A stretch of 64,000 bases of DNA from Nitrososphaerota archaeon (lineage in GTDB: Archaea > Thermoproteota > Nitrososphaeria > Nitrososphaerales > Gagatemarchaeaceae), in assembly GCA_027320425.1 (NCBI GenBank), contig DAHVLJ010000020.1, forward strand, positions 1 to 64,000, written 5' to 3'. This document shows, one piece after another, positions 18,019 to 59,853 of the stretch. Positions within the stretch are counted from its first letter, which is position 1. Each line of letters opens with the position of its first letter. The notes under the pieces were generated by a model. The model was given only the letters and a program-made list of their open reading frames with translations, ran no database searches and was not told the DNA's origin. A program made the translations under genes and the position numbers.

Positions 18019-18110
18019 GAATCACTTTCGACTGGTGCCTTCCGGTCAGCTTTTGTCGGATTCGGGCAAAGGATTTTAGCCTCACGTCTCAAGCGAAAGT
18101 CAGATTTTCT

Positions 18111-31147: not shown

Positions 31148-31279
31148 CTATGGGGTCGTCCCACCGATGCCGTCTAGGAACCCCAGGTACAGGCCGTGGG
31201 CCACGGCGAGCCCCACAAGAGCCGTCATGGTCGCGGAGACCAGGAACAGCCCGACCCGGATCTTGACGTCTATGGTCAT
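31148..31279 (-). CDS. 43-aa putative single-TM protein
   Basis: ATG ORF MTIDVKIRVGLFLVSATMTALVGLAVAHGLYLGFLDGIGGTTP*; not in ORF track. Confidence 0.5.
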   Translation of the reverse strand: MTIDVKIRVGLFLVSATMTALVGLAVAHGLYLGFLDGIGGTTP

Positions 31280-31337
31280 GGCGAGGCACACTTCCAGCCA
31301 GCACTAGTTCCGCTTTATCATCAAGAACCGAACGCTG

Positions 31338-31440
31338 TTCCATGGTTTCCCCAAACACTCGCACATAATTTCCTACGAAAACAGAGGATAGGCGGGGGCG
31401 CCCGCGCAAACACCTATCTAGACCAGTGTTTCCACTGTTC
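31338..31440. promoter_or_regulatory. ORB-like element(s) upstream of cdc6
   Basis: ccagtgtttccactgttctttc (reverse complement GAACAGTGGAAACACTGG) at about 31418-31440; weaker gttccatggtttccccaaac at about 31340. Confidence 0.55.
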
Positions 31441-31444
31441 TTTC

Positions 31445-32635
31445 TTGTCTGACGACGTCAAAGAGATCTTTCGGAGGGCCAAAGAAGGGAAGAGCATTTT
31501 CGTCGATCGCGACTCTCTGAACCCGAACTTCCTCCCCGACAGCCTTCCTTTCAGGGAGGGGCAGTCCAAGGAGATAGCCGAGATACTCTCTCCGATACTG
31601 CTAGGCTCGAAGCCGTCCAACCTCCTGTTGTATGGCAAGACCGGGACGGGGAAGACGGTGGTCGCGAGGAAGGTGCTCAAGACGCTGAAGGACACCGCCG
31701 AAAGGAACAACCTCGTCGTGGCTTATGTCAACGCCAGGACAGAGAGCACAGAATACCGAACCCTGGCGGAGTTCGCGAGGTCGCTGGACCTTCCCAAGGA
31801 CGAGCAGATACCGTTCACCGGTCTGTCAACGGGCGAAGTGGTTGAAAGAATTTCGAGACAGATCAAGAGAAACGGGATGCACGCGGTCTTAGTCCTCGAC
31901 GAGATCGACTATCTCGTCAGGGAATTCGGGGATGGGGTCCTCTATGAATTCACGAGGTCGAGCGAGCGCATGGCCCCGGGCTTCCTTTCGCTCGTTGGCA
32001 TCTCCAACGACCTGAAGTTCAAGGAGGGGCTAGACCCGCGAGTCCTCAGCAGTCTAAGCGAAGAGGAACTCGTCTTTCCGCCATATACGGTCGAGGAGCT
32101 CAGGGCGATTCTCAACGAGAGGGCGAAGGTAGCGTTCAGGCCCTCGGCGGCGTCGCCCGGCGCCATCAATCTCTGCGCCGCAATGGCGGGGTCAGAACAC
32201 GGCGACGCAAGGCGGGCCATCGACCTGCTCAGGATCGCCGGAGAGGTCGCCGAGCGGGAGGGGCGGAAAGGGATCGACGACTCCTGCGTCAGGCAGGCGT
32301 CGTCCAAGATGGAGGTGGACAGGGTGGACGAGGCGATACGCTCACTCCCGGTCCAGAACAAGGCGATTCTCTACGCCGTTTCGAGGTTCGACGGAGGGAC
32401 TAACACCGGGGAACTCTACCTGGCGTACAGCAACCTCTGCAAGAAGCTCGGCATAGAGACACTCACCCAGAGGAGGGTGAGCGGGATACTCGGAGACTTG
32501 GACCTGCTGGGGCTGGTAGAGGCGTCCGTGGTCAGCAAAGGCAGGCGCGGCAGGACAAAAAAAATCCAACTCCTCATAGGACGGGAGGCGCTCACCAAAG
32601 CCCTTTCTGAAGACCCGGCCTTCGACTTCCCTTAG
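31445..32635 (+). CDS. cdc6: Orc1/Cdc6 origin-binding AAA+ ATPase
   Basis: NLLLYGKTGTGKTVVARKVL, VLVLDEIDYLV, C-terminal wHTH; likely TTG start at 31445 instead of ORF-track start. Confidence 0.92.
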   Translation: MSDDVKEIFRRAKEGKSIFVDRDSLNPNFLPDSLPFREGQSKEIAEILSPILLGSKPSNLLLYGKTGTGKTVVARKVLKTLKDTAERNNLVVAYVNARTESTEYRTLAEFARSLDLPKDEQIPFTGLSTGEVVERISRQIKRNGMHAVLVLDEIDYLVREFGDGVLYEFTRSSERMAPGFLSLVGISNDLKFKEGLDPRVLSSLSEEELVFPPYTVEELRAILNERAKVAFRPSAASPGAINLCAAMAGSEHGDARRAIDLLRIAGEVAEREGRKGIDDSCVRQASSKMEVDRVDEAIRSLPVQNKAILYAVSRFDGGTNTGELYLAYSNLCKKLGIETLTQRRVSGILGDLDLLGLVEASVVSKGRRGRTKKIQLLIGREALTKALSEDPAFDFP

Positions 32636-34098
32636 GAAGCGAACCCAGCGGCGCCGAAGCTGCGCCTCGTAACTTGCAGGTTCGACAGGTCGACGACGGG
32701 GACGACGCTCGGGGTGGGTTCGAGGCCCATGTTGGACTGGAAGCTCGTCTGGGCCTGCCAGGTACCAGAGTTGACGAGGAGGGTCCCCCGATACGTCATC
32801 TCTCCATACGTGTGGACGTGTCCCACATGGAAGACATCGGGAACTTGGTCCACCACGAGGTAATCCCTGAGCTCCGGAGAGAGGGCGGTGCGCTTCCCAT
32901 AGGTGGGGGCAAGGTGCCTAGCTTTGAGCAGAAGCTTCATCGCATCTGTGGGCCTGTCATAGGCAAGGTTGGGGGTCGTCGCGATAATGTCATCCAAGCT
33001 CTTTCCGTGGTAGATTAGGAAAGTAGTTCCATGCAGCCTGACATATGAGGGGTCGCCCACCCAGCGGACGTTGTCCATTGCGTAGAGCGACTCCGCCATG
33101 TCGACAGGAACCGCAGGTTGCGGCAGCGCCTGTCTGACCGTGTCATGGTTCCCCGGGGACACGACAATCTGCATATGCCCTGGGACCTGCCTGAGGAGGT
33201 CCGCCGCCATGGCGTATTGCTTCTTGGGGTCTCTTTCTGCGAGCTGAAACTCCTGACCGGGATAGACTCCGACGCCGTCGACCAGGTCCCCGGCGATTAC
33301 AAGGTACTTCACCCGGTTCACCACGTCCTTGTCCCCGAGATTCCCGTTGAGCCACATCAGGAACCGGCGAAAGTCGTCCGCGAGGAACATCCTGCTTCCG
33401 ACATGCAGGTCGGAGAGAAGGACCGCATAGGCCCGATGGGTGGAAGAGACCACCCTGCGCCCTGGAAGGTCAGGAAGGACCACGGAATCGGTGAACAGGC
33501 CTCCCGACTTCCCTCGCGAGACCTCGACGACGACCATGCTGTCCAACGGAGCCTCGAGCGCCGCTTTCTCGACTAACCCATCTTGGCAGACGACCTTGAC
33601 AGAGCCGGTCGGATCGTCCACTCTGAGCTCGACGACGCCGTGCCTGCTGGAACGTTCGGCCAGAAGCCCCGCAACCCTGACTTTCTTGCCAGGGGCGAGA
33701 CTTCTGGTTGACGACACCGGGCCGCTGCTCTTCGTGTCGAGTCTTTCTCGGACGATTGAAAACAACCTCTGGTATCGGTCGTGGAACAGCGCTCCGAAGC
33801 CCTCGGCCCCCTCGGTCGGGGCGATGGCAGGAGTGGGGTCGGAGATGACCTCCACTTCGGCTGGCTCCTGAGCCACGACCACATCCGAAGCACGCGGGGT
33901 CTCTTTTGGTATCAGTCTTGCTACGTCGCCCACCGTGATGAGCTTCGCCTCGCCAGGGGCGGCAGATTTTTGCTCGAGCAACCTGTCCACCAGGCCTTCA
34001 TCGGCGCCTGGAGGGAGAGAATTGATCATCTCGAAGGCTTTGGCATCGAGGAGGTACCCCGACGACAGGACGCGCGCTATTGCCCTGGACTCAGGCAT
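32632..34098 (-). CDS. polB: DNA polymerase D small subunit DP1
   Basis: OB-fold plus calcineurin-like phosphoesterase motifs: VLLSDLHVGSRMF, VIAGDLVDGVG, VSPGNHD, HVGHVHTYG. Confidence 0.92.
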   Translation of the reverse strand: MPESRAIARVLSSGYLLDAKAFEMINSLPPGADEGLVDRLLEQKSAAPGEAKLITVGDVARLIPKETPRASDVVVAQEPAEVEVISDPTPAIAPTEGAEGFGALFHDRYQRLFSIVRERLDTKSSGPVSSTRSLAPGKKVRVAGLLAERSSRHGVVELRVDDPTGSVKVVCQDGLVEKAALEAPLDSMVVVEVSRGKSGGLFTDSVVLPDLPGRRVVSSTHRAYAVLLSDLHVGSRMFLADDFRRFLMWLNGNLGDKDVVNRVKYLVIAGDLVDGVGVYPGQEFQLAERDPKKQYAMAADLLRQVPGHMQIVVSPGNHDTVRQALPQPAVPVDMAESLYAMDNVRWVGDPSYVRLHGTTFLIYHGKSLDDIIATTPNLAYDRPTDAMKLLLKARHLAPTYGKRTALSPELRDYLVVDQVPDVFHVGHVHTYGEMTYRGTLLVNSGTWQAQTSFQSNMGLEPTPSVVPVVDLSNLQVTRRSFGAAGFAS

Positions 34099-40320: not shown

Positions 40321-40437
40321 GCGCATCGCTAGCCAAGGCACAACACATCGATGATAAGGCGCCCGCCAGGGCCACTTCGCCGCTCACCGAGTACCGGACG
40401 TCCGGTTCGCTCCAGCCCCTGACCAGGGCATAAATGG

Positions 40438-40522
40438 TGCGGGGGGAGGGATTTGAACCCTCGAACCCCTAAGGGATGAGGTCCTGAGCCTCACGCCGTT
40501 GACCAGGCTGGGCGACCCCCGC
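40438..40522 (-). tRNA. tRNA-Leu(CAG), CCA encoded (to 40435)
   Basis: Reverse complement GCGGGGG TC GCCCAGCCTGGTCAACGGC G TGAGG CTCAGGA CCTCA ... CCCCCGC A CCA; no intron. Confidence 0.95.
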
Positions 40523-40655
40523 GTTAGCCGGCGAGCCCATCATTCGCTTTATAACATTGAACTGGTTCTCGTCACTTTCGCCATCCTCTCTCCATAACTT
40601 GGAGCGCGTCGTCTTGCCCCGGATTATATCTTCACGAAAGCTCCCGATTCGGCAG

Positions 40656-41588
40656 ATGTCCAAACTCCACTATCTCTACGAGCAGGTGGCGGACGGCAAG
40701 GAGAGGTTCGTGTACTATTGCTCGAGCTGCAACTGCGTGATTACGGCGAGGAAAGTTTGGGGACCCACGGGTTCCTTCTACGGCCTATGCCAGAGTTGCG
40801 GCCGGTCTCTGGCCGGCGGGACCGAATGCCGACTGGTTCCAGTGCCGGAAGACTGGACCGACGTGTTGGTGGATTCGGCCACGGCTGTCCAGACGGAACG
40901 GGCGATCTTTCAACCGGCTTCTTCTCTCCCACATTTCTCCCTAGGCTTTTCACAACTCGATTCGTTACTGAGGCCTCTTGCGGAAGGGCGACTAGTCGTC
41001 CTGAGCGGCGCTCCGTCGTCTACTGTGGCCGAGCTGGCGGCGCTCCGAGCTCAGCTCCCGATTGAGACCGGTGGGTTCGACTCCGCCACACTATTCATCG
41101 ACGGAGGAAACAGGTCGGACCCATATCTTTTCTCGTCGTTCGCAAGACAGAAGGGCATCAGGCCCGCCGCCGCCATGAGGCGCGTCGCTTCCTGCCGGGT
41201 GTTCACCTGTTACCAGCTCGCTGCACTGGTCTCCGAGCACCTGGCGCAGGTCGCCGACGACCATGGGACCAAACTCATCGTCATATCTGACCTCTTGGGG
41301 ATGTTCAACGAACCCGAGCTGGACGAGAGGGAGGCAAGGCGCGTCCTGGGCGCCGTGGAGGCGGGGATAGCGAAGGCCAAACGGCGGGCCCTGATAATCG
41401 TCACCCTAGTTTCGCCCAGCAAGTATGATGCCACCGTGACTTCGTGGCCCGACACACTGGTGCAGCTCTCCCCTGACGGGGACAACGTAAGGGCCGAGCT
41501 CGTCAAACACAGGAACAGAGCGCCAGGGGTCGCCACGTTCAAGCAGAGTCAGCTAATCAGGGCTGCCAGGAGGGAGGGTCTCCGCTGA
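40656..41588 (+). CDS. RecA/RadA-fold protein with zinc ribbon and degenerate Walker A
   Basis: Start MSKLHYLYEQVADGK; CSSCNC...CQSCG; VVLSGAPSSTVAELAAL at Walker A position; KLIVISDLLGMF Walker B-like; TATA-like attatatc about 30 nt upstream. Confidence 0.7.
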   Translation: MSKLHYLYEQVADGKERFVYYCSSCNCVITARKVWGPTGSFYGLCQSCGRSLAGGTECRLVPVPEDWTDVLVDSATAVQTERAIFQPASSLPHFSLGFSQLDSLLRPLAEGRLVVLSGAPSSTVAELAALRAQLPIETGGFDSATLFIDGGNRSDPYLFSSFARQKGIRPAAAMRRVASCRVFTCYQLAALVSEHLAQVADDHGTKLIVISDLLGMFNEPELDEREARRVLGAVEAGIAKAKRRALIIVTLVSPSKYDATVTSWPDTLVQLSPDGDNVRAELVKHRNRAPGVATFKQSQLIRAARREGLR

Positions 41589-41854
41589 TGGGCCGGACGA
41601 TTCCATCGTTCAGGATCGCGGAAGAGCAGGAAGCCGCCGAATGGCGGTCGTTCAGGAAGGCGCTTCCAAAGGAAGACAGGGCGGCCTTCGACGAGATGCT
41701 GAGCTCAGCCAGGCTCTTCACGTCAGCCTCTTCTGCAGCGGTAAGGCCGTCAAAATTCGAAGGGATGGCCATGGCGATAATCTTCAGCCACTACAAGACC
41801 CTCTCGCGATGCGCTGTTGCCGCCAAGACAAGGGGTGTGAGGCCGGAAGGATGA
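41588..41854 (+). CDS. Small helical protein A of PolB cassette
   Basis: Overlaps stop of preceding gene; similar to following gene. Confidence 0.65.
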   Translation: MGRTIPSFRIAEEQEAAEWRSFRKALPKEDRAAFDEMLSSARLFTSASSAAVRPSKFEGMAMAIIFSHYKTLSRCAVAAKTRGVRPEG

Positions 41855-42117
41855 CGCTGTCCGACGGAGAGATCATGGAGGAACTCGACAGTTGGGCGCA
41901 CTTCGCCGACGCACTGGGAGCAGACGACAAAGCGCTGTTCAGAGAAATGATCAGGCGATGTTACGACTATTTCCCCGCGATTCAGGCCAGGGACTCCCCA
42001 TTCCCAGCCGAAGCCGTCTTCATGAGCATCCTCCTGGCGCAGCACAGGACCATACTCTGGCTGGCGGAAGAGGTGGGGAGGCTGAAGGTGGGGAAAGACG
42101 CGCGGCTGGATACTTGA
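41851..42117 (+). CDS. Small helical protein B of PolB cassette
   Basis: Start MTLSDGEIMEELDSWAHFADALGADDKALFREM inside ORF-track ORF 41641..42117; overlaps preceding gene. Confidence 0.65.
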   Translation: MTLSDGEIMEELDSWAHFADALGADDKALFREMIRRCYDYFPAIQARDSPFPAEAVFMSILLAQHRTILWLAEEVGRLKVGKDARLDT

Positions 42118-42142
42118 CCTGTACCATGGCGCTCCCGGCGAG

Positions 42143-44356
42143 ATGGTCGTATGGCTGAAGCTCGAAAGCGGCGAGGCTGTGCGGCTGGTCGACCGATGGT
42201 CTCCGTCAATCTTCGTGGGCGCCGACAACAAAGCTGACTTCGCCGTCCCGATATACACAGTGCGCCAAGACTACGAGTGGACCCGCCCCGTCCAGATGCG
42301 AGAAAGCGTGATCGACCCAAAGACGTCAGAGGTTCTCGAGATGAAGCTCAAAGACGCCACGAAGTCGCAGCAGGTCGCTGGGCGGATTGAGCGACTCGGG
42401 CCGTTCGGGACATTCAGGCTCTACAACGCCGACATCCCGCCCCCTCAGAGCTATCTCTACGAGAAAGACCTCTTCCCCCTCGCCCAATGCGACGTGGTGA
42501 CCAGAGAGGGGCGCCTCCAGTGGAAGCTAGAAGACGACGTCTGGGACTACGAATACGCCGTCCCCGGCCTGAGAAAGGTCAAACTGGACGTGGAGGTGGC
42601 GAAGGAGGGCAAGCTCCCGCGCTTAACAGACAGGCTCGAATCGGCCACGCTAGAGAGCGACAGCGGAAAGATCACATTCGAAGGGGGGAGCGAGGCTGAC
42701 AAGCTGCTCGCCCTCGTGCAAGCTGTCCGCGACGCAGACCCTGATTTCATCCTTACCAACGACGGCGACACGTTCCTGTTCCCTTACCTGATCAGGAGGG
42801 CCCAGGCCAACGGCCTGACATCACAGCTGGTCTTGGGCAGAGACCGGACGGCCATGAAAGCCCCGAGCAAAGGAGGGACCTCATACTTCAGCTACGGCCG
42901 CATCCACTACAAACCTTCAGCCATCAAGCTCAGAGGGCGGGTGCATATAGACATCAACACCTCATTCACCTACTCCGAAGCAGGGTTCGAAGGACTATTC
43001 GAGCTGAGCCGGACGTGCCGCATGCCCCTACACACGTCGAGCAGGGCGAGCATCGGGAAGGCGCTCTCCAGCCTCCAGTTCTACCACGCGCACAAGGCGG
43101 GTTTACTCGTTCCCTGGAAGCCGACGCTCGCAGAGCGCTTCAAGGACAGGAGCGAGCTCATGGTGGCAGACAGGGGCGGCTTCATCTTCGAGCCGCGGCT
43201 GGGCGTCTGCGAGAACGTCGGAGAGCTCGACTTCTCAGCGCTCTACCCAAACATAATGTATCGAAAGAACATCTCGGCGGAGACGATAAGGTGCTCGTGC
43301 TGTCCTGATTCTGACAACCGGGTCCCGGAACTGGGCTGGAATGTCTGCAAGAACAAAGGCATCGTCCCTCTGGCCATCGAGATCATAGTTGAGAAGAGAC
43401 TCCGCTACAAGGAACTCGAAGCGAATACGACCAACAAAGCAGACCGCCCGAGGTACAGCGCCCGCCAGGCGGCGCTCAAATGGCTCGGGGTCACCACATT
43501 CGGCTACCTCGGGTTCAACAACGCGAAGTTCGGGCGCATCGACGCGCACATCGCAGTGTGCGCCTGGGACAGGAAGATACTGCTGGACGCGGCCAGGATA
43601 GCCGAAGAAAGAGGCTTCGAAGTCGTGCACGGCATCGTCGACTCCCTCTGGGTGAGGAAAGAGAGGGCGGACAGCGGAGACTACATCGAGCTCGGGGCCG
43701 ACATCGAGTCGGAGACGGGGTTCGCCATGACCTTCGAAGGCGTCTACAAGTGGCTGGCCTTCCTCCCCTCCAAGGCTGACTCTGGCGTCCCCGTGCTCAA
43801 CAGATACTTCGGGGCCCACAGCGACGGCACCCTGAAGGTGAGGGGGGTGGATGCGAGGCGCCACGACACACCGCTCGCATTCAGACGATGTCAGATGGAC
43901 CTACTGAAGATTATGGCCAGGGCAGGTTCGGCGCTCGAGGTCAGGGACACGGTCCCCGAGTGCACCAGGGTTTTCTTTGGATACGCCGACATGATAATGC
44001 ACCACGAACTCTCAGCGTCAGAGCTGGCTTACACTACGAATCTTTCCAAGGCCCCCGACGAATACACGACGATGACGGTGCAGAACTCGGCCGTCACACA
44101 GCTGACACGCGAGGGGGCGTCCCTCCACGCGGGAGAGGGGATACGGTACGTCATAACCGATTATGATGGGAGGGACTCGAGGCGGGCGATCCCTCTGGAC
44201 ATGGTCGAAGACCAAATCAAATATGACGTGGAGAGATACATCGGATTACTCGCCCGAGTCTGTTCGGCTGTACTCGAACCGTTCGCCCCCGAATGCACAG
44301 CTCAGTTCCTGATGCGTAGTTATGAGGCGCATCGGAGCGGGCCGCTCACCAGCTGA
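42143..44356 (+). CDS. Family B DNA polymerase, diverged (PolB2/Dpo2-like?)
   Basis: Motif A-like LDFSALYPNIM, motif B-like ...ARQAALKWLGVTTFGYLGFNNAKFGRIDAH, motif C position HGIVDSLWV. Confidence 0.82.
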   Translation: MVVWLKLESGEAVRLVDRWSPSIFVGADNKADFAVPIYTVRQDYEWTRPVQMRESVIDPKTSEVLEMKLKDATKSQQVAGRIERLGPFGTFRLYNADIPPPQSYLYEKDLFPLAQCDVVTREGRLQWKLEDDVWDYEYAVPGLRKVKLDVEVAKEGKLPRLTDRLESATLESDSGKITFEGGSEADKLLALVQAVRDADPDFILTNDGDTFLFPYLIRRAQANGLTSQLVLGRDRTAMKAPSKGGTSYFSYGRIHYKPSAIKLRGRVHIDINTSFTYSEAGFEGLFELSRTCRMPLHTSSRASIGKALSSLQFYHAHKAGLLVPWKPTLAERFKDRSELMVADRGGFIFEPRLGVCENVGELDFSALYPNIMYRKNISAETIRCSCCPDSDNRVPELGWNVCKNKGIVPLAIEIIVEKRLRYKELEANTTNKADRPRYSARQAALKWLGVTTFGYLGFNNAKFGRIDAHIAVCAWDRKILLDAARIAEERGFEVVHGIVDSLWVRKERADSGDYIELGADIESETGFAMTFEGVYKWLAFLPSKADSGVPVLNRYFGAHSDGTLKVRGVDARRHDTPLAFRRCQMDLLKIMARAGSALEVRDTVPECTRVFFGYADMIMHHELSASELAYTTNLSKAPDEYTTMTVQNSAVTQLTREGASLHAGEGIRYVITDYDGRDSRRAIPLDMVEDQIKYDVERYIGLLARVCSAVLEPFAPECTAQFLMRSYEAHRSGPLTS

Positions 44357-45836: not shown

Positions 45837-48800
45837 ATGTCTTTCTCCGCAGACCTCGCTTGGGAGAGAGTCAAAACCCTGGCTCCGTTTCCCAAGCACC
45901 TGGATTCGTACTACAGGGACATACTTTCACAATACGAAGCTGCTCATAACCTTGCGGTCCTGGCAAGATCAAAGGGGCACGATCCGACCGACTCGGTGGA
46001 AAGCAAGACCGTCTTCGATTTGGCAGACAGAGTCAACCAGATGCTCCGGCTCGACCAATTCGAGGGGCTGGTCGACAGGCTTCGTGAGCTCCTCCACACG
46101 ACAACCAAGGAACGGGCCGCGCTGACCATATCGCAGGAGATTGCACTAGGGAAGTTCGGAACCCTCGAAAGACACGAGGCGCTGAGCTACGGGGTCAGGG
46201 CGGGGCTAGCAGTGATGACCGATGGCGTCACAGTGGCGCCGCTCGAAGGGATATCCGCAGTAACGATAAAACAGAACGACGACAATACCGACTACGTCTC
46301 CGTGTCCTATGCTGGTCCGATGCGCTCCGCGGGAGGGACAGAGGCGGCTTTCTCCCTCGTTATCGCAGACGTGACCGCCAAGAAGCTCGGGCTGAGCAAC
46401 TATAGGGCTCGTCAGGAAGAGATTGACAGGTTCGCCGAGGAGCTGAGGATCTATGAGCGCGATGTAGGCAACTTCCAGTACAAGGTCACCGACGATGACA
46501 TCAGACGTGCCATCTCGAACATGCCGGTCGAAGTAGACGGCATTGAGACAGACCCTATCGAGGTGGTCGTCCACAGGAGCCTGAAGCGGGTGACCACCGA
46601 CAGGCTCAGGGGCGGAGCCCTCAGGGTCTTGAACGACGGCGTCATAGGCCGCGCCAACAAGCTCTCGAAGAAACTGGCGAGCCTCAACATCACAGGGTGG
46701 GAGTTCCTGTCCCAGCTGAAAGGGGGGACCCAGCAGACGACCAACGAGACCGAGAAGGCAGGGGCACACTTCGAAGAGGTGATCTCAGGGAGGGCCGTAC
46801 TTTCGATGCCAAGGAGCAAGGGAGGATTCCGCCTCCGATACGGCAGGTCGGTCAATACCGGCCTCTCGACCATAGGCATACATCCGGCGGTGGCGACGCT
46901 GCTCGACTACCCGGTGGTGACCGGGACCCAGGTGAAGGTGGATATGCCAGGGAAGGCGGCTACGATAGCTTTCGTGGACTCGATCGAGGGCCCAACCATA
47001 CTGACCAAGGACGGGAGCGTCATCAGGGTATCGACGACGGGCCAGGCTGAGAACATGCGCGACGCCCTCTCGAAAATCATAGACCTCGGCGACGTCCTGG
47101 TGAGCTACGGAGACTTCCTCGAGAATAACAAGACGATGCCGCCCTCTCCCTACGTTCCAGAATGGTGGAGCCAAGACCTGGCTAGGGCCGTAGGGAGCAC
47201 TCCAGGCGCTCAGCGGCTTCTCGACGCCGCGGGACTTCCGTCCGCTAGGGTCAGAGACCTGATTGCGTCACCTCTCGCGACCCCAACAGCCGCCGAGGCG
47301 ATATTGATTTCGAGGGCGTTGGGTATACCACTGCACCCATCGCACACGCCGCGATTCGACCGGGTCAGCGCCAACGACCTCGCCGAGCTCAGGAAGAACT
47401 CAAGGATAGTAGGCTCTACCGTCGTCATACGCGTCTCCGTCCCCCAGATACGATGGATTCTCAACACATGCCTTGTCGAGCACGGCATAGACGGCGACCT
47501 GGCATCGGTGGAAGGGGAGCAGGCGCTGATACTCAGGACGCTGCTCAGGCTCGACGAGCCAGAACACGTCGTACCTGAAGACGAGCCCGACTACATCAAG
47601 CGCCTCTCAGGAATCGAGCTTGGACGCCAGAGCACGACGACTATCGGCATCAGGGTAGGAAGGCCGGAGAAGGCGATGGTCAGGAGGATGAAACCTCCGG
47701 TCCACGCGCTCTTTCCAGTCGGCTTCGAGGGCGGCCCCATGCGCGATGTGTTCGCGGCCGCGAAGGCACAGAGGTCAGAGATAGAGGTCGTCAACCTGTA
47801 CTGCAGGACCTGTAAGGAGAGGAGGCTGGCTACCAAATGCGAAGTTTGTGGCGATGCCACAGACTCGTTCATGGCGTGTCCGAAGTGCGGTGCCATGTCT
47901 CAGGACACCACGTGTCCCAACTGTCGGGCGAAGACCCTCCCTTACTCCAAGATGAACTACGACTTTAGGTCGAGGCTAGAAGCCATCAGGGCAAAGATTC
48001 CGCACAACCCCGCTAAACCGGTGAAAGGGGTGAGAGGGCTCACGAGCGTATCCAAGTTCCCCGAGGCGTTAGAGAAGGGGGTCATCAGGAGCAGGCACGA
48101 CGCCTACGTGTACAAGGACGGCACGCTGAGAATCGACGCGACCAACGAGCCGCTCACCCACTTCCGGGTGACCGACGTGAAGGGAGACATCCCGACCCTG
48201 ATCAGGCTCGGTTACTCGCACGACATGAACGGCGCCCCTCTCGAGAGACAGGACCAGGTTCTCGAGCTCAAACCACAGGATATCGTCATCCCAGCTGACA
48301 TTGGAAGCGACCTCGTCAAGATGGCCCAATGCATCGACGACGAGCTCCAGAACCTCTATGGCCTTGACGCTTTCTATTCGGTGAGAGAGCCTAAAGACCT
48401 GCTAGGGAAGATCGTCATCGGTCTCGCTCCGCACACATCCGTTGGCGTCGCCGGAAGGATAGTCGGATTCTCAGCCACAGAGGTCTGCCTGGCAAACCCC
48501 TACTGGCATTCAGCAAAGAGGCGCGACTGTGATGGAGATGGTGACTCGCTTCTACTTCTCATGGACGTTCTGGTCAATTTCTCTCTGCAGTACGTCCCTG
48601 CCCAGATAGGCGGATACATGGACACCCCTCTCCTGATTCAGCCGGTCATCCTCCCTTCGGAAGTAGATGAGCAGGCCCACAACTTCGACATCGCGCCGAG
48701 CTATCCTCTCGAGTTCTACGAGAAGACCCAGAGCACACCCGCCGCGGCGGCGTTGGCGCCGCTGATAGAGCGGATCGGCTCGCGCCTGGAAAGCGACACC

Positions 48801-49301
48801 CAATTCTATGGCTACGGCTACACCCACCCCACAAGCGCCATCACGATAAGGCGCTCACGTGGATCGTATTCGACCCTTCGCACCCTGAACGAGAAGATTT
48901 CAAAGCAGATTGAAGTAGCATCTCTGGTTGAAGCCGTTTCTACAAGAGACGTCGTCGAGTCGATAATCAAGACACATCTTATCAGGGATATCATGGGGAA
49001 CGCGAAGAAGTACGCCACTCAGGCGTTCAAGTGCAAGAGCTGTGGTCTCACTCTGAGGCGTCCTCCCCTGGCTGTCAAATGCCCCAGCTGCGGCGGGGAG
49101 ATTAGGGGAACCCTTACCAGAGCGTCAGTAGAGAAGTATCTCTACATCGCCCAGAAACTCGCCAGAGACTACGATGTGGATTCCTATCTCAGGAGCAGAT
49201 TAGAAATGCTCCAGAGGGAGCTGGACCAGCTGTTCCAGGGGCCTAGGAAGGCAGACCAGCTGGAGCTGACTGAATTCCTGAAACCGGCACTAGCCAAATG
49301 A
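45837..49301 (+). CDS. polC: DNA polymerase D large subunit DP2
   Basis: YAGPMRSAGGTEAA, RRDCDGDGDSLLLLMDVLVNFS catalytic motif, multiple CxxC zinc motifs; no intein. Confidence 0.96.
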   Translation: MSFSADLAWERVKTLAPFPKHLDSYYRDILSQYEAAHNLAVLARSKGHDPTDSVESKTVFDLADRVNQMLRLDQFEGLVDRLRELLHTTTKERAALTISQEIALGKFGTLERHEALSYGVRAGLAVMTDGVTVAPLEGISAVTIKQNDDNTDYVSVSYAGPMRSAGGTEAAFSLVIADVTAKKLGLSNYRARQEEIDRFAEELRIYERDVGNFQYKVTDDDIRRAISNMPVEVDGIETDPIEVVVHRSLKRVTTDRLRGGALRVLNDGVIGRANKLSKKLASLNITGWEFLSQLKGGTQQTTNETEKAGAHFEEVISGRAVLSMPRSKGGFRLRYGRSVNTGLSTIGIHPAVATLLDYPVVTGTQVKVDMPGKAATIAFVDSIEGPTILTKDGSVIRVSTTGQAENMRDALSKIIDLGDVLVSYGDFLENNKTMPPSPYVPEWWSQDLARAVGSTPGAQRLLDAAGLPSARVRDLIASPLATPTAAEAILISRALGIPLHPSHTPRFDRVSANDLAELRKNSRIVGSTVVIRVSVPQIRWILNTCLVEHGIDGDLASVEGEQALILRTLLRLDEPEHVVPEDEPDYIKRLSGIELGRQSTTTIGIRVGRPEKAMVRRMKPPVHALFPVGFEGGPMRDVFAAAKAQRSEIEVVNLYCRTCKERRLATKCEVCGDATDSFMACPKCGAMSQDTTCPNCRAKTLPYSKMNYDFRSRLEAIRAKIPHNPAKPVKGVRGLTSVSKFPEALEKGVIRSRHDAYVYKDGTLRIDATNEPLTHFRVTDVKGDIPTLIRLGYSHDMNGAPLERQDQVLELKPQDIVIPADIGSDLVKMAQCIDDELQNLYGLDAFYSVREPKDLLGKIVIGLAPHTSVGVAGRIVGFSATEVCLANPYWHSAKRRDCDGDGDSLLLLMDVLVNFSLQYVPAQIGGYMDTPLLIQPVILPSEVDEQAHNFDIAPSYPLEFYEKTQSTPAAAALAPLIERIGSRLESDTQFYGYGYTHPTSAITIRRSRGSYSTLRTLNEKISKQIEVASLVEAVSTRDVVESIIKTHLIRDIMGNAKKYATQAFKCKSCGLTLRRPPLAVKCPSCGGEIRGTLTRASVEKYLYIAQKLARDYDVDSYLRSRLEMLQRELDQLFQGPRKADQLELTEFLKPALAK

Positions 49302-59253: not shown

Positions 59254-59853
59254 ATGAGTCTTAACGAGGACCGGGCCCGCTCTTTCCTTGGACCCCTCGA
59301 AGGCAAGACTGCCACGTTTCAGTTGGGTGGGAGAGAGGCGAACCTTGCATTTTCACGTACCACGATGCACGTACTCGCGACGGCACGCACGCCATGCGTC
59401 ATCTTAGACCTCGACGCGTTCTATTCTTCCAATGCTGACCATATCTTTCGAAGGTTACCTGGAGACCTAGCATCTTTCGAGTTGCGCGTACCAGCTGCAG
59501 GAGCCGACATCGAAGCAGAGTTTTCTTCCTTGTTCGAGGCGGAGCCCAGAGCGATTGTCGTAGATAGCCTGAACACCCTTTATCATCTGTTCTCCCAAGA
59601 AGACGGGCGCTCCAGGGGGCGTAAGGTGCTTTTCGCCCTCGAAGCGCTCTCACAGTTCGCTCGGGCCAACGGCAAGCCAGTGGTGTTGACCATGTACAGG
59701 CGCGAGGGTCTGGTCAAGCAGGGGCGAGGGAGGACTATCGCAACCCTGTCTGATATCGCAGCCTCGGCCAAGACGGACGGCCACGAAATTGGTATCGCGA
59801 CAGAAAAGGGGACAGCCTGGCTCGGGGGATCTGTCTCTATCCGAATCCCTTGA
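59254..59853 (+). CDS. RecA-superfamily protein lacking Walker A
   Basis: AIVVDSLNTLYHLF Walker B-like, GKPVVLTMYRREG..IATLSDIAAS; no GxxxxGK[ST]. Confidence 0.6.
   Translation: MSLNEDRARSFLGPLEGKTATFQLGGREANLAFSRTTMHVLATARTPCVILDLDAFYSSNADHIFRRLPGDLASFELRVPAAGADIEAEFSSLFEAEPRAIVVDSLNTLYHLFSQEDGRSRGRKVLFALEALSQFARANGKPVVLTMYRREGLVKQGRGRTIATLSDIAASAKTDGHEIGIATEKGTAWLGGSVSIRIP

Follow-up and report, generated by a model that had tools for sequence, protein, structure and literature searches.

The 64,000-nucleotide stretch of DNA analyzed here (G000:C20:1-64000, referred to as the window; its genome measures 0.9 Mb and is 53% complete) carries iRadA, PPB2a, PPB2b, and PolB2, four genes that follow one another in this order on the + strand between 40656 and 44356. 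By their sequences, these genes almost certainly represent a member of the PolB2 mutasomes. A translesion function of the operon appears very probable, and overall we strongly favor the reading that the locus would encode a PolB2 translesion mutasome of a Nitrososphaerota (thaumarchaeal) lineage. Nearly all testable markers of a PolB2 mutasome are recognizable in it. Two features go beyond the published descriptions available, namely a four-cysteine ribbon in iRadA and a conserved promoter box.

The PolB2 operon and its proteins

The gene order iRadA-PPB2a-PPB2b-PolB2 is kept in nearly all PolB2 loci of genomes from the same family, and most of 40 loci examined phylum-wide have iRadA and PPB2 immediately upstream of PolB2. 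The relatives compared are non-independent samples, and the order and family labels that we use for them (Nitrososphaerales, Nitrososphaeraceae, Nitrosopumilaceae, and Sulfolobales for genome G177) are presumed ones. Linkage is broken at a second PolB2 gene in genome G033 (L044), at two loci of Nitrososphaeraceae type (L057 and L134), and at the distant loci L146 and L150. A scan of contigs with PolB2 returned one relative only, L002 of Thaumarchaeota archaeon REEA66 (a metagenome-assembled genome), which is the closest named relative found. A preliminary description of this DNA had noted four same-strand, tightly packed genes, a zinc ribbon and a RecA fold without GKT at Walker A in the first of them, two tandem small paralogs, and a motif C with one Asp replaced in the polymerase. 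All of these observations held, and chance does not account for them; the first three genes overlap by 1-4 nt, and the start of PPB2b was corrected to ATG 41851 (Table 1).

The polymerase matched family-B polymerase models with E-values down to 1e-116 and is homologous, at the family-B level, to PolB1 and PolB3 structures. In a quick maximum-likelihood tree of 81 polymerases, 66 PolB2 rows were separated from 15 PolB1- or PolB3-like rows by a branch with a support of 99, and the window polymerase fell on the PolB2 side, within the subclade without DxD. The closely related genome G005 encodes a separate YGDTDS polymerase (L105), which is its PolB1 in the tree. Curated cut-offs of the NCBIfam PRK05761 subfamily were not reached (NF004416, 390.9 bits with a cut-off of 516; NF004418, 357.8 with a cut-off of 692), but these are not PolB2-defining, and that of NF004416 was reached in none of the control genomes. 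The first Asp of the motif C YGDTDS is Ile498 in the window polymerase and the second, Asp500, is retained; alignment of 18 diverse PolB2s showed that Asp500, the catalytic Asp363 of motif A, and Asp343 of the D(K/R) motif, which has been described for PolB2 (PMC11791011), are all invariant. The proofreading exonuclease site is broken, as read from an alignment with PDB relatives (A1): Exo II has the sequence NDGDTFLFPYL with Leu in place of Asp, and Exo III has the sequence YSEAG with Gly in place of Asp.

iRadA (310 amino acids) gave an E-value of 3.6e-5 with Pfam Rad51 and of 5e-7 with the NCBIfam RadA model. A profile of its family matched solved RadA structures at 7e-28 over profile positions 91-285 only, which correspond to the RecA core, and hhalign against active RadA yielded 97.4%. 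The Walker A position is LSGAPSSTVAEL, where SGAPSSTVAE aligns with GEFGSGKTQ of RadA, and no GK[ST] is present. Of the IDTE motif of RadA, iRadA has GG (FIDGG) in place of TE, which includes the catalytic Glu, and the Asp of Walker B is substituted as well. iRadA lacks the N-terminal helical domain of RadA and has a four-Cys ribbon, C22-x2-C25 ... C45-x2-C48, in its place; this module probably serves in docking or in contacting DNA. Most of the clade has the ribbon, as do a few other families, both within the order (L049, L126, L139, and L140) and elsewhere in the phylum (L135 and L165), and it has decayed or been lost in L054 from the same genus; this rules out a genus-specific novelty. The C-terminus of iRadA is FKQSQLIRAARREGLR, in which no aromatic pair was seen on inspection by eye only.

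PPB2a and PPB2b have 88 amino acids each and no significant match in Pfam or NCBIfam. They are paralogous, as a profile built from either one detects both. PPB2a opens with the arm MGRTIPSFR, including R3 and R9, in nearly all relatives, and PPB2b never does. Duplicated PPB2 has been reported to show this pattern, with MGRT in one copy only and with Arg3 and Arg9 as conserved arginines (PMC11791011). Among loci of this PolB2 type that have PPB2, two copies are present in nearly all Nitrososphaerales, and a single copy is the rule outside the order.

Table 1. Positions of the operon, its promoter, and individual motifs in the window
Feature	Coordinates	Strand	Basis
tRNA-Leu(CAG), divergent, conserved upstream neighbor	40435..40522	-	present in 14/15 scanned relatives
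Promoter box CACTTTCG-CCATC-CTCTCTCC, contains ACTTTC (= ANTTTC)	40573..40593	+	alignment of 18 PolB2 promoters
TATA-like TTATAT, 43 nt after the 8-mer, 26 nt before the iRadA ATG; mostly TTAAAT in relatives	40624..40629	+	promoter alignment
iRadA, RadA/Rad51 paralog without ATPase site, N-terminal zinc ribbon	40656..41588	+	Pfam Rad51, RadA profile, hhalign
Zinc ribbon of iRadA, C22-x2-C25 ... C45-x2-C48	40719..40799	+	sequence; 3/4 Cys nearly invariant in alignment A6
iRadA, degenerate Walker A (LSGAPSSTVA, GK[ST] absent)	41001..41030	+	alignment, hhalign
PPB2a (arCOG07300 type), N-terminal arm MGRTIPSFR	41588..41854	+	PPB2 homology in all surveyed operons
PPB2b, second PPB2 paralog, no MGRT arm	41851..42117	+	family profile and alignment
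PolB2, family-B DNA polymerase	42143..44356	+	family-B model matches, alignment, tree
D343-R344, D(K/R) motif of PolB2, loop before palm	43169..43174	+	D343 invariant in 18-sequence alignment
Motif A catalytic Asp363 (LDFSALYPNIM), kept	43229..43231	+	invariant in alignment of 18 relatives
Motif C HGIVDSLWV, first Asp of YGDTDS replaced by Ile498, catalytic Asp500 kept	43628..43654	+	sequence and alignment

PolB2 of relatives begins with MRGWILDLYPG, 15 codons upstream of ATG 42143. The window encodes this peptide, but the codon at the start position is ACG (42098-42100), and no ATG, GTG, or TTG is present in frame upstream of it. The true start is probably at 42098-42100; PolB2 may start with ACG or late at ATG 42143, or the assembly may be in error.

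Several other features of this gene group were observed. PolB2 of five relatives contains inteins at polymerase motif B, after residue ~452 (L052:5357-6964, L056:3311-4894, L059:1543-2625, L050, and L051), and the three inserts tested had Pfam Intein_splicing and LAGLIDADG domains. In this group, intein-like inserts likewise occur in the replicative PolB, in RadA (L235), and, within the P-loop, in the orc1/cdc6 paralog (L254). The same family and order also contain a second, diverged type of PolB2, which has an intact DxD (YGDVDS or YADCDS; L060, L061, L062, and L064) and adjoins iRadA and PPB2. In the window, genes for an Orc1/Cdc6 protein (31196-32635, +), the small subunit of the replicative PolD (32632-34098, -), and its large subunit (45837-49301, +) lie within 11 kb of the operon. 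Further away, at 59254-59853 (+), there is a gene for a 199-amino-acid RecA-like protein with a Walker-B-like stretch, no P-loop, and no Pfam match, which is kept in about half of the relatives and is possibly a second ATPase-dead RecA/RadB paralog.

The promoter box and its candidate regulon

The DNA upstream of iRadA has diverged among relatives, and one block stands out from it. This box lies just upstream of the interval 40656-44356, between the divergent tRNA gene and the operon, and all 18 aligned operons from the genus and family contain it with the consensus CACTTTCR-N5-CYCYC. The first seven bases, CACTTTC, do not vary among the 18 PolB2 promoters, and the eighth base is G in 17 of them. 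An ungapped alignment gave 1.96 bits per position for the 8-mer and 1.55 bits for positions 13-17, compared with 0.43 bits for the flanks. The promoters share a layout in which CACTTTCG is followed by five free bases and CYCYC, TTAAAT or TTATAT lies 41-47 nt past the 8-mer, and the start codon follows ~25 nt further on. The orphan PolB2 gene L044 of G033, with neither iRadA nor PPB2 nearby, still has the CACTTTCG box and the TATA spacing.

We searched for the box at other sites. With the TATA element included, CACTTTCG-N(38-48)-TTAWAT matched 33 times in 31 genomes of the genus, 17 times at PolB2 operons, and had no match in the reversed control. The bipartite pattern CACTTTCGN{5,6}CYCYC, i.e. 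CACTTTCG-N(5,6)-CYCYC, matched ~100 times versus ~21 times in the reversed control, which corresponds to ~3 and ~0.7 matches per genome, respectively. At PolB2 loci of distant families, the bipartite box was found five times in 18.9 kb of operon-upstream DNA versus twice in 867 kb of other DNA (p = 9e-8), and one of the five belongs to the Sulfolobales-like genome G177. Once all 7-mers were taken into account, plain CACTTTC was not significant in distant families (seven families, shuffle mean 1.3, largest 6; other 7-mers reached 8-11); the bipartite form and the fixed spacing provide better support. Two more occurrences of the CACTTTCG 8-mer in the window, at 18023 and 19061, are attributed to chance (three matches versus 2.6 expected).

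The additional matches precede genes for an Lhr-family helicase, RadA, an orc1/cdc6 paralog (Orc1b), SepF, a PadR regulator, a small zinc protein, and others. The box-bearing Lhr contains a WH_Lhr domain, and the ligase-associated DNA damage response helicase is among the NCBIfam models closest to it. At the Lhr loci of the genus the box is mostly exact, with one mismatch in the others (two in a single case), and is 22 nt from the TATA element in nearly all. Orc1b belongs to the orc1/cdc6 family by TIGR02928, and its best PDB match is A. pernix 2v1u, which is not diagnostic of an Orc1-2 ortholog; the box is exact at 12 of its 23 loci and has one mismatch (mostly TACTTTCR) at the other 11, with 42 nt to the TATA element in 22. 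For RadA, three of five loci from the genus or family have the box, two of these loci having been chosen for it, and so does the distant L342 of G255. In the window's own genome the box is present at PolB2 and Lhr (L272) and, with one mismatch, at Orc1b (L310); the orc1/cdc6 gene at 31196-32635 in the window is a different paralog, 34% identical to Orc1b.

Box and TATA element are separated by 12-13 nt (SepF), 22 nt, or 42-44 nt. The steps from one spacing to the next amount to roughly one turn and two turns of the helix, in agreement with what is expected of a protein that needs to face the TATA complex. The cell-division gene sepF (L240 and L256) has its box one helical turn closer to the TATA element, for which reason the box could serve in repression instead of activation at this gene. 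An IS605-type TnpB gene also lies behind a box with equal TATA spacing (L247, G010:C14).

In Sulfolobales, ANTTTC is the damage response element (DDRE), which is found in several damage-response promoters and is bound by Orc1-2 in its own promoter (PMC9738581, PMC6934391). An ANTTTC-type element is likewise present here in candidate target and orc1/cdc6-family promoters, as CACTTTCR or TACTTTCR precedes both the PolB2 operon and Orc1b in genomes of the genus. We infer from these sequences that the box genes probably make up a damage-inducible, SOS-like regulon. That Orc1b might be the regulator acting through the box is a tentative proposal, to which we give somewhat less than even odds. The broadest interpretation of the data has, in our estimate, about equal chances of being right or wrong: CACTTTCR-N5-CYCYC would be the operator of a damage regulon in Nitrososphaerota (PolB2 mutasome, Orc1/Cdc6 paralog, Lhr, RadA, and perhaps SepF) that is homologous to the Sulfolobales Orc1-2/DDRE, an SOS-like response with a mutasome, a recombinase, a helicase, and a cell-division target would be ancestral to Thermoproteota, and the zinc-ribbon iRadA with duplicated PPB2 would be a distinct variant of the mutasome.

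Proposed mechanism and alternative readings

We propose the following mechanism. DNA damage would act on the box to switch on the promoter, possibly, as in Sulfolobales, by way of the Orc1/Cdc6 paralog, whose own gene carries the box. iRadA, PPB2a, PPB2b, and PolB2 would then assemble into a mutasome, in which iRadA would act as a non-filamenting, Rad51-like docking subunit and PolB2 would dock on it by a Rad51-like interface. A PPB2 trimer would insert the MGRT arm into the cleft between PolB2 and iRadA, and the zinc ribbon of iRadA would add a further contact. Without proofreading, PolB2 would extend distorted or mismatched primer ends past lesions, resulting in damage-induced mutation.

Other explanations were considered for both the operon and its box. 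The polymerase might be an ordinary PolB1 or PolB3 with a diverged motif C beside unrelated small genes, as its family-B homology to PolB1 and PolB3 structures would allow. The probability of this is negligible: the tree and the neighborhoods refute PolB1/PolB3 identity, with the placement in the PolB2 clade at a support of 99, a separate YGDTDS PolB1 in the related genome G005, and the upstream genes accompanying PolB2 across the phylum. The preliminary description had named precisely these two outcomes, grouping with PolB1 or PolB3 and upstream genes that do not co-occur in relatives, as speaking against it, and neither occurred. A further possibility is that PolB2 lacks catalytic activity and that the complex encoded by the operon has a regulatory or structural role, in replication or in the handling of forks. 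This was first proposed from the motif losses and is suggested by the loss of the first motif-C Asp and of the exonuclease site, by PolD subunit genes in the same window, and by the inactivation proposed by Makarova et al. in 2014 (PMC4104785). We regard this as very unlikely, since both metal-binding residues, Asp363 and Asp500, are invariant over 18 diverse PolB2s and since targeted mutagenesis in S. islandicus depends on Dpo2, a polymerase that shares the substitution and can extend mispaired primers (cited in PMC11791011; PMC7390963).

The box, in turn, could be a general core-promoter or tRNA-linked element and no damage-response site. Its neighbors are a divergent tRNA gene on one side and the operon on the other, and it also precedes genes without a known DNA role, such as those for the PadR regulator and the small zinc protein. 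Against this, the bipartite form is rare, at ~3 matches per genome versus ~0.7 for the reversed control, and the box keeps a fixed TATA spacing before Lhr and Orc1b, elsewhere in the genome; moreover, the box contains the Sulfolobales damage element and precedes PolB2 operons of distant families. We therefore consider this explanation rather improbable, though clearly less so than the two alternatives for the polymerase.

Several observations weigh against the interpretation of the locus as a damage-regulated translesion mutasome. Some PolB2 genes (L044, L057, and L134) have no partners nearby. An AlphaFold model of iRadA, made with two sequences, reached a predicted local distance difference test (pLDDT) score of 44.5, which was too poor for use. 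A canonical PCNA-binding motif was not evident in iRadA or PolB2 on inspection by eye only; in PolB2 mutasomes, this motif occurs at the C-terminus of iRadA or PolB2 in a subset only. The box itself was found by inspection, so that the search was not blind, and the bipartite test was set after the first matches had been seen. An exact box was not found at those operons of Nitrososphaeraceae and Nitrosopumilaceae that were examined (L126, L139, and L140) or, among the loci examined outside the genus, before Lhr.

Relation to known systems

The operon would bring a translesion complex that has been described computationally and barely explored by experiment to soil Nitrososphaerota, in a form whose recombinase subunit bears a ribbon and whose small subunits are paired. 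Its promoter box is the more important feature, as a testable handle on whether a coordinated SOS-like response with an induced mutator polymerase exists in archaea other than Sulfolobales, and it touches on how archaea generate mutations under stress.

The preliminary description had suspected that the family was partly known from PolB2/Dpo2 operons, which is the case (PMC4104785, PMC11791011). Makarova et al. predicted an operon of PolB2, arCOG07300, and an inactivated RadA in Crenarchaeota, Euryarchaeota, and Caldiarchaeum, with a polymerase that they predicted to be inactive (PMC4104785). The locus described here shares the predicted operon and functional link and differs in belonging to a Nitrososphaerota lineage. 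Timinskas et al. introduced the names PPB2 and iRadA in 2025 and modeled a heteropentamer, PolB2-iRadA-PPB2(3), which they compared with Pol V; in their model, a Rad51-like motif of PolB2 is the docking site of iRadA, and the cleft is occupied by the MGRT arm (PMC11791011). Our operon agrees with this mutasome in its three protein families, the order iRadA-PPB2-PolB2, the ATPase-dead RadA, the decayed exonuclease, the lost first Asp of motif C, the D(K/R) motif, and the duplicated PPB2 with a single MGRT arm. It differs from the published description in the N-terminal zinc ribbon of iRadA and in a conserved promoter box that also precedes the genes for an Orc1/Cdc6 paralog and Lhr as well as some radA genes. 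Neither zinc nor cysteine occurs in the main text of PMC11791011; within this search, the suggestion that the ribbon may be new holds.

The type member, Dpo2 of S. islandicus, is induced by damage, and targeted mutagenesis requires it (PMC7390963); a translesion role of PolB2 is supported by PMC7390963 and by PMC8764526. The window polymerase resembles Dpo2 as a PolB2 with a substituted first motif-C Asp and a predicted role in damage tolerance. Unlike Dpo2, the polymerases of this group have 737-752 amino acids, compared with ~577 in the Sulfolobales-like G177, and a more complete exonuclease remnant. The box likewise resembles the ANTTTC/Orc1-2 element of Sulfolobales, as its core ACTTTC fits and a similar box precedes an orc1/cdc6 paralog gene, whereas the site described here is longer, bipartite, and located 22 or 42-44 nt upstream of the TATA element, with an Orc1 paralog as a candidate binding protein.

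A parallel to bacterial mutasomes had also been drawn in the preliminary description. The association of a dead RecA paralog with a PolB2-type polymerase stands, but the closest published analogue is Pol V (UmuC-UmuD'2-RecA) and not ImuA-ImuB-DnaE2; membership in the latter is ruled out, as the polymerase belongs to family B and the operon contains no ImuB- or DnaE2-like gene. Both bacterial systems combine an error-prone polymerase with a RecA-family partner and small subunits, as does the PolB2 operon. Their polymerases are from other families and their small subunits are unrelated, making them analogous to, and not homologous with, the archaeal system.

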